The notes beneath the pieces were generated by a model, which had not been told where the DNA came from, searched no databases, and worked only from the letters and a program-made list of their open reading frames with translations. From Patescibacteria group bacterium (GTDB lineage: Bacteria; Patescibacteriota; Minisyncoccia; Moranbacterales; GWC2-37-73), in contig JAKLIP010000001.1 of assembly GCA_022709545.1 (NCBI GenBank), forward strand, positions 310,001 through 374,000: a DNA stretch of 64,000 bases, written 5' to 3'. Positions 9,058-11,499 of the stretch are shown here, one piece after another. The first letter of the stretch is position 1; every line of letters begins with the position of its first letter. The position numbers and the translations under genes are program-made.

Positions 9058-9540
9058 ATGAATTTAGAAATCAAAAAATATCCGGATCCTATTTTGCTGA
9101 AAAAAGCGGAAAAAATAAAGGACCCTATGGACGAAAAAATCCAAAGGCTCATTTTTGACATGACGGAAACATTGCATTCCAACAATAACGGGATCGGACT
9201 GGCAGCTCCGCAGGTTGGAATAGGTTTGCGTTTGTGCATAATCGAACTGGAAGGCACGCGCTATGTGCTTATCAATCCAAAAATCACAGCTAAATCAAAA
9301 AATAAGGAAACTTGCGAGGAAGGATGCTTGAGCTTTCCGGGAGAGTTTTATCCCGTTGCGCGATTTCATGAAGTTCAGGTCAGATATGATGATGAGAGCG
9401 GAAAGTCTAAAAAAATAAAAGCCCGCGGCTTGCTGGCGAGAGCTTTCCAGCACGAAATAGATCATCTTGACGGAATAGTTTTTATAAACAGGATTAAAAA
9501 ATCTTCAAAAAAATGCCCAATAAAAAAGGAGACAAAGTAA
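9058..9540 (+). CDS. def: peptide deformylase
   Basis: 160 aa. All three deformylase motifs are present: GIGLAAPQVG (45-54), EEGCLS with metal ligand C90, and QHEIDHLDG with ligands H132 and H136 and catalytic E133. It removes the formyl group from the N-terminal Met of new proteins in the cytoplasm. It is followed by fmt, which adds that formyl group to initiator tRNA; the two frames overlap by 28 nt, the usual functional pairing. No Shine-Dalgarno; a TATGAT box (9037-9042) lies 15 nt upstream, so the leader is short. Confidence 0.95.
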   Translation: MNLEIKKYPDPILLKKAEKIKDPMDEKIQRLIFDMTETLHSNNNGIGLAAPQVGIGLRLCIIELEGTRYVLINPKITAKSKNKETCEEGCLSFPGEFYPVARFHEVQVRYDDESGKSKKIKARGLLARAFQHEIDHLDGIVFINRIKKSSKKCPIKKETK

Positions 9541-10502
9541 AACCACATTCAAAAGAAGCAAATCTTTCAGTGGTTTTTATGGGAACTTCTGAATTATCGG
9601 CTGCCATACTTGAATCTCTGATAAAAAAATATCATGTTATTGGCGTCTTCACTAAACCTGACACTAAAGTCGGACGCCAGCATGAAGAAGCTTCTCCTCT
9701 TGTAAAAAAATTGGCAGAAATCCATAAGATTCCTGTTTTTCAGCCAGATAAATTTAATGATGAAGCAATAAGGAAACTTAGAGAATTGAATCCGGAAATG
9801 ACGGTTGTTGCCGCTTATGGAAAAATTATTCCTGAGTCAGCTTTGGACATACCCAAGTTTGGTTTTATAAATGTGCATGCTTCTCTGCTTCCAAAATATC
9901 GTGGACCTTCGCCTGTTCAGAACTCCCTCATTAACGGAGAAACAGAAACGGGCGTTACTATCATGCTGATGGATAAGGGAGTTGATACCGGAGACATCCT
10001 GGCACAGGAAAAAATAGCCATATCTCCTGACGACAACACAAAAACTTTAATGGAAAAATTTTCGCTTTTAGGATCGGATTTGCTTCTGAAAACAATTCCT
10101 CAGTGGACAAAAGGAAAAATCAAACAGCAGCCTCAGGACAACAAAAATGCAACTTCCTGTCAACTCATTGAACGCGAAGATGGACATGTAAATTGGAATG
10201 GGAATGCCAAATCTATTTATAACCGTTATCGCGCGCTTACTCCCTGGCCAGGAATTTTTTCTTATTGGAAAACTGATTCAAAAACTGTCCGCATAAAACT
10301 AATCTCCATTTCTCTTCAGGAAAAGAATGCTTTGGAAAAATACAGGGAGGGAGAAGTTTTCAGAATTGGCAACGATATCGCTGTACAGGCTGCCAGCGGA
10401 ATTATTCTTATCAAAGAAATCCAGCAGGAAGGAAAGAAAAAGATGAAGACCCAGGAATTTGCAAATGGAAAACCCGGTTTTATAGGAAGCATACTTCAAT
10501 AA
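9513..10502 (+). CDS. fmt: methionyl-tRNA formyltransferase
   Basis: 329 aa. N-terminal Rossmann domain (VVFMGTSELSAAILESL), folate-binding and catalytic stretch NVHASLLPKYRGPSPVQ (N120, H122) and MDKGVDTGDI (catalytic Asp D158), then the C-terminal OB-like domain with DGHVNWNGNAKSIYNRYRAL and PWPG. It formylates Met-tRNAfMet with 10-formyl-THF. The ATG lies 28 nt inside def. The stop codon coincides with the left flank of a 126-bp inverted-repeat element (10500-10635). Confidence 0.93.
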   Translation: MPNKKGDKVKPHSKEANLSVVFMGTSELSAAILESLIKKYHVIGVFTKPDTKVGRQHEEASPLVKKLAEIHKIPVFQPDKFNDEAIRKLRELNPEMTVVAAYGKIIPESALDIPKFGFINVHASLLPKYRGPSPVQNSLINGETETGVTIMLMDKGVDTGDILAQEKIAISPDDNTKTLMEKFSLLGSDLLLKTIPQWTKGKIKQQPQDNKNATSCQLIEREDGHVNWNGNAKSIYNRYRALTPWPGIFSYWKTDSKTVRIKLISISLQEKNALEKYREGEVFRIGNDIAVQAASGIILIKEIQQEGKKKMKTQEFANGKPGFIGSILQ

Positions 10503-10635
10503 AACCCCCACACCAATCTGGTACTTTAGCAGATGAATTTTATTAAAATGTATTGCGTTAATTTTTTTAAATAAATAACTGATAGGGATATTTTTTGTGC
10601 TTATGGCACTGTGCCGAATTGGTGTGGGGGTAAAA
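10500..10635. mobile_element. MITE-like inverted-repeat element, or structured RNA
   Basis: Perfect 13-bp inverted repeats CCCCCACACCAAT (10505-10517) and ATTGGTGTGGGGG (10618-10630) bound a 126-bp AT-rich unit. Directly outside each end is TAAAA (10500-10504, 10631-10635), like a 5-bp target-site duplication; the left copy includes the fmt stop codon. An inner hairpin GGCACTGTGCC lies at 10605-10615. No coding capacity. On the minus strand the closing stem is followed by TTTT, so a structured RNA is the main alternative. Confidence 0.5.
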
Positions 10636-10677: not shown

Positions 10678-11499
10678 ATGATCAACGAAAAAAAAGAAAA
10701 AATTGTCATAACTTTAGGTTTCTTTCTGATTCTTATTGTCATACTTATTACTTTGTTCCGCAGCAATTTATTTGAAAACAAAGACTCTTCAAATGATTTG
10801 AATTTAAGCGGACAAAGCTATTCCAAACCTGACTATCCGACAATTAATGTCAAAGACTTGAACAAAAAAATGCTTCTCTCTAAAGAAGATACTCCCCTTG
10901 TATTGCTCGACGTAAGATCTTTTGATTCTTATGCCAGGGAGCATATCGTAGATTCCATAAACATCACTCCCGATGAGTTTCCTTTGAATTCAAAAATTGA
11001 TTTGCACAAGCAGGTTATTGTCATCGGTGCCGAAGAAAATGACGAAAACATCAAAAAGACGGTTGACGAACTGAAAAAAGAAAATTTCAAAGATTATTTG
11101 GTTTTACTTGGAGGTATGCTTTTATGGAAACAGACCGGAGGAACAACAGTAACCTACGGCGACCCGACCTCATTCGTAGATCAATCTAAGGTTTATTATG
11201 TTGAGCCAGAAAAATTAAATGAGGCTCTCAAGCAGAATGTTCCTATGTTCATTATCGATGTAAGGACGGCTGAGGAATATTCTAAAGGGCATATTCCCGG
11301 AGCAATAAACATCCCCTCTGATGATCTGGAAAAAAGACGCCGGGAAATTAAAGAGAAAAGGGTTGTGGTTGTCGGAATAAGCGAACTTCATGAATTTCAA
11401 TCATCCGTAAAGATGTATGACATGCTTTTGGTTTCTCCTTTTGTCCTGAAAGGTGCAATGCCGAAATGGGAAGAAAAAGGATACCCTATAACTAAATAA
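10678..11499 (+). CDS. membrane-anchored tandem rhodanese-like protein, catalytically inactive
   Basis: 273 aa: an N-terminal anchor (about residues 9-28), a Ser/Asn linker, then two rhodanese-homology domains (about 50-160 and 180-270). Domain landmarks are clear (LLDVRSFDSYAREHIVDSINI and IIDVRTAEEYSKGHIPGAINI; LLGGMLLWKQTGG and LKGAMPKWEEKGYP). In both domains the active-site loop that normally begins with Cys is replaced (VIVIGAEENDENI and VVVVGISELHEF). Sulfur transfer is therefore unlikely; a binding or regulatory role outside the membrane is inferred. No Shine-Dalgarno is visible. A terminator follows. Confidence 0.8.
   Translation: MINEKKEKIVITLGFFLILIVILITLFRSNLFENKDSSNDLNLSGQSYSKPDYPTINVKDLNKKMLLSKEDTPLVLLDVRSFDSYAREHIVDSINITPDEFPLNSKIDLHKQVIVIGAEENDENIKKTVDELKKENFKDYLVLLGGMLLWKQTGGTTVTYGDPTSFVDQSKVYYVEPEKLNEALKQNVPMFIIDVRTAEEYSKGHIPGAINIPSDDLEKRRREIKEKRVVVVGISELHEFQSSVKMYDMLLVSPFVLKGAMPKWEEKGYPITK

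Follow-up and report, generated by a model that had tools for sequence, protein, structure and literature searches.

An ORF-less inverted-repeat element behind fmt in a Patescibacteria genome, and its probable kinship with small GIY-YIG-linked transposons

The 126-bp unit that follows fmt in the window (the whole 64,000-nucleotide stretch of DNA analysed here) probably belongs, as an ORF-less copy, to a family of tiny transposons, the mover of which is most likely a GIY-YIG nuclease of ~84 aa. The unit is almost certainly a mobile element and very likely belongs to a GIY-YIG-linked class, and the GIY-YIG protein is the somewhat favoured candidate for the mover. ORF-less and full-length copies have their ends, target rule and genome in common and the full-length copies contain one candidate enzyme, so that the question of what moves them becomes testable.

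Results

The element and its surroundings comprise the following features, in window positions:

9513..10502, plus strand: fmt, methionyl-tRNA formyltransferase, host gene, intact
10500..10504: left TAAAA flank, target duplication, probably TAAA plus A; includes the fmt stop
10505..10517, plus strand: left terminal inverted repeat CCCCCACACCAAT, paired, perfect
10518..10617: interior, A+T-rich, no ORF, single copy in the genome, no Rfam match
10618..10630, minus strand: right terminal inverted repeat, CCCCCACACCAAT on the minus strand, paired, perfect
10631..10635: right TAAAA flank, target duplication
10678..11499, plus strand: rhodanese-domain protein gene, downstream host neighbour

The perfect 13-bp arms CCCCCACACCAAT/ATTGGTGTGGGGG (10505-10517 and 10618-10630), claimed in the initial annotation, were both read in the sequence; they enclose 100 bp and reach 14 bp if A10504 and T10631 are counted. 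The identical TAAAA flanks of the 126-bp element were likewise confirmed (10500-10504 and 10631-10635), the left one beginning with the fmt stop TAA (10500-10502). The right arm (10618..10630) is the 5' end in family orientation, and is preceded on the minus strand by TTTA.

Scanning ~966 kb of the host genome (~54 kb of contigs C12-C14 left out) for perfect arms of at least 13 bp, with a span of 60-420 bp and at least six G+C in the outer ten, yielded five inverted repeats, four with the ends of the window element and the fifth in a parS-like cluster. The fold energy of the window element lies 5.2 s.d. below that of shuffles (z -5.25). Because four of the five rare perfect repeats are of the same family, and the fold energy is low, the window repeat is not due to chance. 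The parS-like cluster, made of TGTTCCACGTGGAACA palindromes (G000 C10:299527-300255), perhaps marks the replication origin region.

A whole-element DNA search found the full 126-bp unit once in the 1.02-Mb host genome, and the interior of the window copy matches no other family copy. The earlier statement that there is no second copy holds for the full unit but not for its ends, since convergent pairs of the 13-bp arm are present at several other host-genome sites:

C1:53115-53213: family copy, 99 bp, intergenic
C1:61012-61136: family copy, 125 bp, holds an intact tRNA-Arg(GCG) and splits another tRNA-Arg(GCG) in the T-loop
C1:84294-84596: family copy, 303 bp, GIY-YIG ORF inside
C1:134107-134211: family copy, 105 bp, one arm mismatch
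C10:341670-341783: family copy, 114 bp, holds a tRNA-Ala(CGC), located in another tRNA-like gene, in its anticodon loop
near C1:128288 and C10:173711: more decayed family copies

Exact CCCCCACACC-N61..121-GGTGTGGGGG pairs were detected in 18 of the 131 genomes of the order, representing 13 genera, and the reversed pattern gave 0 matches in the same genomes. Copies lie between genes, in frame within protein genes and in tRNA genes; the recurrence at different sites with varied flanks that the annotation had named as a check is thus seen for the family, at many unrelated sites. Interiors of the 47 copies read are mostly unrelated, save within families of recent origin, the 104-bp copies of genus g53 being an example. 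The arms differ among copies past position 10 and agree within one copy, positions 11, 12 and 13 being paired in 100, 100 and 93% of cases versus 61, 91 and 43% when arms of different copies are combined (permuted); positions 1-10 were set by the search pattern and are hence uninformative for covariation. In one orthologous pair, the only clean one, 0 of 30 arm bases changed versus 9 of 74 in the interior and 25 of 120 in the flanks. The arms remain complementary though their inner sequence varies among copies, which suggests that they act as a folded stem, either a cruciform or a single-stranded hairpin.

Fifteen copies lie inside long ORFs, every one with a length of 2 mod 3 (which partly follows from choosing open frames), so that the element plus four bases preserves the frame. 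Orthologues in the host genome lack the inserts of the relatives' proteins, the names of which were read from sequence. These are a 36-residue insert in what we take to be UvrA (L270), a 35-residue insert in a presumed RluD-like pseudouridine synthase (L238), a 39-residue insert in the L237 protein without counterpart in the host-genome orthologue, and an insert of ~24 residues in a protein assumed to be TatD (L076), made by a related copy with arms CCCCCACACTAA. Another palindromic insert, unrelated to the family, in frame and encoding PARNA..HSVAGGE, was noticed in proteins of different genera, L076 (the TatD of G014) and L245 (G020:C35); it resembles another family of the type of the Rickettsia palindromic elements (RPEs).

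The 4-mers adjoining the arms conform to YNNR in 44/47 copies on the left and 46/47 on the right, against a background of 23%. The two flanking 4-mers are identical in 13/47 copies (expected 3.2; at most 8 in 1000 permutations) and frequently unequal, for example TTTA on the left with TGTA or CGAG on the right; one subfamily has true target site duplications (TSDs), namely TTGA, TCAA, CAAA, TATA and CTTG. Exact empty sites in congeners were found for two other copies, both in G103, and the gain is the element plus 4 bp. At L267, the congener reads ...AAAAA|TAAAAAAAA and G103 reads ...AAAAA|TAAA[104 bp]TAAAAAAAA, a true TSD of TAAA; at L240, ...TTTTTTA|TAAAAAC corresponds to ...TTTTTTA|TTCA[104 bp]TAAAAAC, a net gain of 108 bp with a non-identical duplicate. 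The target duplication is therefore 4 bp of the form YNNR, not 5 bp. Since this is the family duplication, the TAAAA of the window is most simply read as TAAA plus one A of an A-run. The proposal of a non-autonomous mobile element with a 5-bp duplication stands as regards a mobile, MITE-like unit, but the duplication is 4 bp and the flanking 4-mers often differ.

Two other views of the element boundaries were rejected. The view that TTTA is constant across all elements is at odds with the true TSDs of one subfamily and with the extra bases TTCA at L240. An insertion of arms only, around an interior of host DNA, is at odds with orthologues that lack interior and arms together.

Seventeen other genomes of the family gave fmt matches, and the CCCCC element is absent from all 16 of the fmt loci read among them. 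An empty site at a related fmt locus had been sought as a check; these 16 loci show absence of the element, and the empty sites aligned at the DNA level are those of the two other copies. An element-free fmt-rhodanese spacer would read ...CAATAAAATTTATG. The fmt 3' ends of G003 (L152) and G004 (L149) have a different inverted-repeat element, TTTACCCTGTTAAATAA..TTATTTAACAGGGT, in the same spacer, an independent insertion; a GIY-YIG element in G015 has the same arms as this element.

The 303-bp host member encodes an 84-aa GIY-YIG protein (gene at C1:84316-84567; Pfam PF01541, E 2e-16). Pairs of more than 200 bp always enclose one small GIY-YIG ORF (host, 303 bp; G020, 297 bp; G103, 293 bp; G011, ~300 bp). 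Five genomes with many ORF-less copies hold 115 CCCCCACACC occurrences, of which 98 lie in convergent pairs; 47 of these pairs span 28-131 bp, and the other two measure 297 and 293 bp and coincide with GIY-YIG matches. An independent scan of 66 related GIY-YIG loci, seeded by protein only and drawn from other, mostly Patescibacterial genomes, revealed flanking inverted repeats (score at least 10) at 36 loci versus 3.8% of mismatched flank pairs; 30 of the 66 ORFs have none. The ends around these loci are of the types CCCCCACACC, GCCCCTCACC, ACCCCGCACC, CCCCGCCCTTT and CCCAGTTAAATA, and many loci have exact direct repeats (TTGA, TCAA, CGCG, CAAG, CACG). The motif tyrosines, arginine and glutamates are retained in 33-34 of the 34 stop-free copies flanked by terminal inverted repeats (TIRs). 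GIY-YIG elements with the same ends thus exist, and are the candidate autonomous partner of the ORF-less copies.

The GIY-YIG ORF could nevertheless be a passenger. An ordinary transposase, for example of the DDE type, would then move MITE-like elements that the ORF repeatedly enters as cargo; DDE enzymes typically give a TSD of fixed length, and known MITEs are mostly IS-derived (review PMC10969869). We consider this unlikely: nothing other than GIY-YIG ORFs exceeds 131 bp between these ends in the five copy-rich genomes, and the GIY-YIG linkage recurs across phyla with several different end sequences.

Two host-genome copies split tRNA genes. Alignment of the split and the carried tRNA-Arg revealed four extra bases beyond the element, and removal of the element plus 4 nt gives back 7-nt T- and anticodon loops. 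At G000 C1:60990-61200 (L007 1480-1700), an intact tRNA-Arg(GCG) is carried inside the T-loop of a tRNA-Arg(GCG); the stretches read contained no further tRNA-Arg(GCG), and the carried gene may therefore stand in for the broken one. The joined tRNA-like gene at G000 C10:341634-341825 (L004 1465-1656) is ambiguous between Ser CGA, Lys TTT and Val TAC. GIY-YIG elements also lie in or at 16S (L193) and 23S (L196) genes and, in several lineages, the gene for RNase P RNA (L112, L114, L161, L189, L223). Others, with GCCCC ends, lie just inside tRNA 5' ends (L163, L164, L168, L176, L180), where GGGGC, their end sequence, reconstitutes the start of the tRNA; the 5-bp repeat there is our own reading.

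The restored loops and the members located in genes for 16S, 23S and RNase P RNA are compatible with an intron-like intervening sequence removed from tRNAs and rRNAs at the RNA level, by splicing or RNase III, as are the GIY-YIG-encoding insertions in rRNA that are reported to fit neither the group I nor the group II intron type (PMC11270868). This reading is highly improbable, as the majority of copies are intergenic or read through in frame in protein genes, and Rfam searches matched no intron family in the window and detected only tRNA, rRNA and RNase P at 11 loci, with no intron core.

Barely credible, despite the strong fold, the covarying arms and a minus strand that runs into TTTT, is the annotation's alternative of a structured RNA, or a terminator or processing hairpin of the fmt transcript, which was rejected on the lack of any Rfam match in the window stretch, the 16 family fmt loci without the element, the copies in frame in unrelated protein genes or splitting tRNAs, and the empty sites in relatives. 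Compensatory arm changes, which the annotation would have counted towards an RNA if joined to presence at the same site in all relatives, do occur, alongside mobility; presence at the same site was not seen at the 16 fmt loci read.

Discussion

We propose that the family consists of very small elements with C4-5-rich inverted-repeat ends, which target YNNR and duplicate 4 bp, the window copy having inserted just 3' of the fmt stop and left fmt undamaged. GIY-YIG enzymes typically make 2-nt staggers (I-TevI, Eco29kI), not 4, and we know of no GIY-YIG enzyme that acts as a TIR transposase. An open literature search, with subscription papers and ISfinder outside its scope, retrieved no description of a GIY-YIG inverted-repeat element. 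The GIY-YIG family includes structure-specific nucleases such as SLX1 (PMC8287910). In our model, transposition would need the arms folded as a hairpin or cruciform, the type of structure recognised by SLX1-like enzymes; the nuclease would cut the YNNR target as well as the folded element, the latter at its base, and ORF-less copies would be moved in trans. The non-identical 4-mers may, as a speculation, be four carried donor bases, like the coupling sequences of conjugative transposons. We give an even chance to the broader proposition that, in Patescibacteria, a small single-domain GIY-YIG nuclease serves as the only transposase for a widespread group of inverted-repeat transposons of ~300 bp and for the ORF-less palindromes derived from them. 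If true, these would possibly be among the smallest autonomous DNA transposons, using hairpin or cruciform ends and YNNR targets.

Several known systems resemble the family in part. IS200/IS605 and REP/RAYT elements depend on a Y1 HUH transposase and produce no TSD; the family has hairpin ends and small size in common with them, but it has a TSD, and its long pairs enclose GIY-YIG ORFs only, with no Y1 HUH seen. Group I and II introns differ in having a core, none being detected by Rfam in the window or at the 11 loci.

The window element has the attributes of a MITE, with terminal inverted repeats, no transposase ORF and a length below ~600 bp; it has TAAAA twice, other family copies have a target site duplication and empty sites, and many copies occupy unrelated sites, with ends alone in common and differing interiors. 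The MITE reading is supported, with the duplication corrected to 4 bp, because family copies lie at many sites, empty sites exist and 16 fmt loci lack the element. Prokaryotic type II MITEs are similar in that the likeness is limited to the terminal inverted repeats, the TSD is short and there is no ORF; the family differs in that no IS/DDE transposase was found with its ends, the candidate partner being the GIY-YIG nuclease.

To our knowledge, no enzyme is known for RPEs, nor has a mover so far been identified for RPE-like gene-invading palindromic repeats. RPEs are short (~150 bp) palindromic repeats found in frame in many protein genes (PMC10969869). By this description the family appears to behave like them, its copies being inserted in frame in unrelated protein genes, but it occurs in Patescibacteria and has sharp C-rich ends, the YNNR rule and full-length GIY-YIG relatives. 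It offers a possible explanation for the in-frame inserts in the conserved proteins UvrA, RluD and TatD.

A further counterpart may be the CPR rRNA insertions, which are non-intron, contain a GIY-YIG ORF, show low target conservation and occur alongside short ORF-less ones (PMC11270868, the main text of which makes no mention of inverted repeats or palindromes). The family too has GIY-YIG-encoding and short ORF-less non-intron insertions, and the two would be the same elements, a reading supported by the 16S (L193) and 23S (L196) loci. Non-intron insertions seen in Patescibacteria, in genes for rRNA, tRNA and RNase P RNA, could thereby be explained, and we infer that the family is a mini-transposon with ORF-less derivatives, mobilised by a putative GIY-YIG enzyme.
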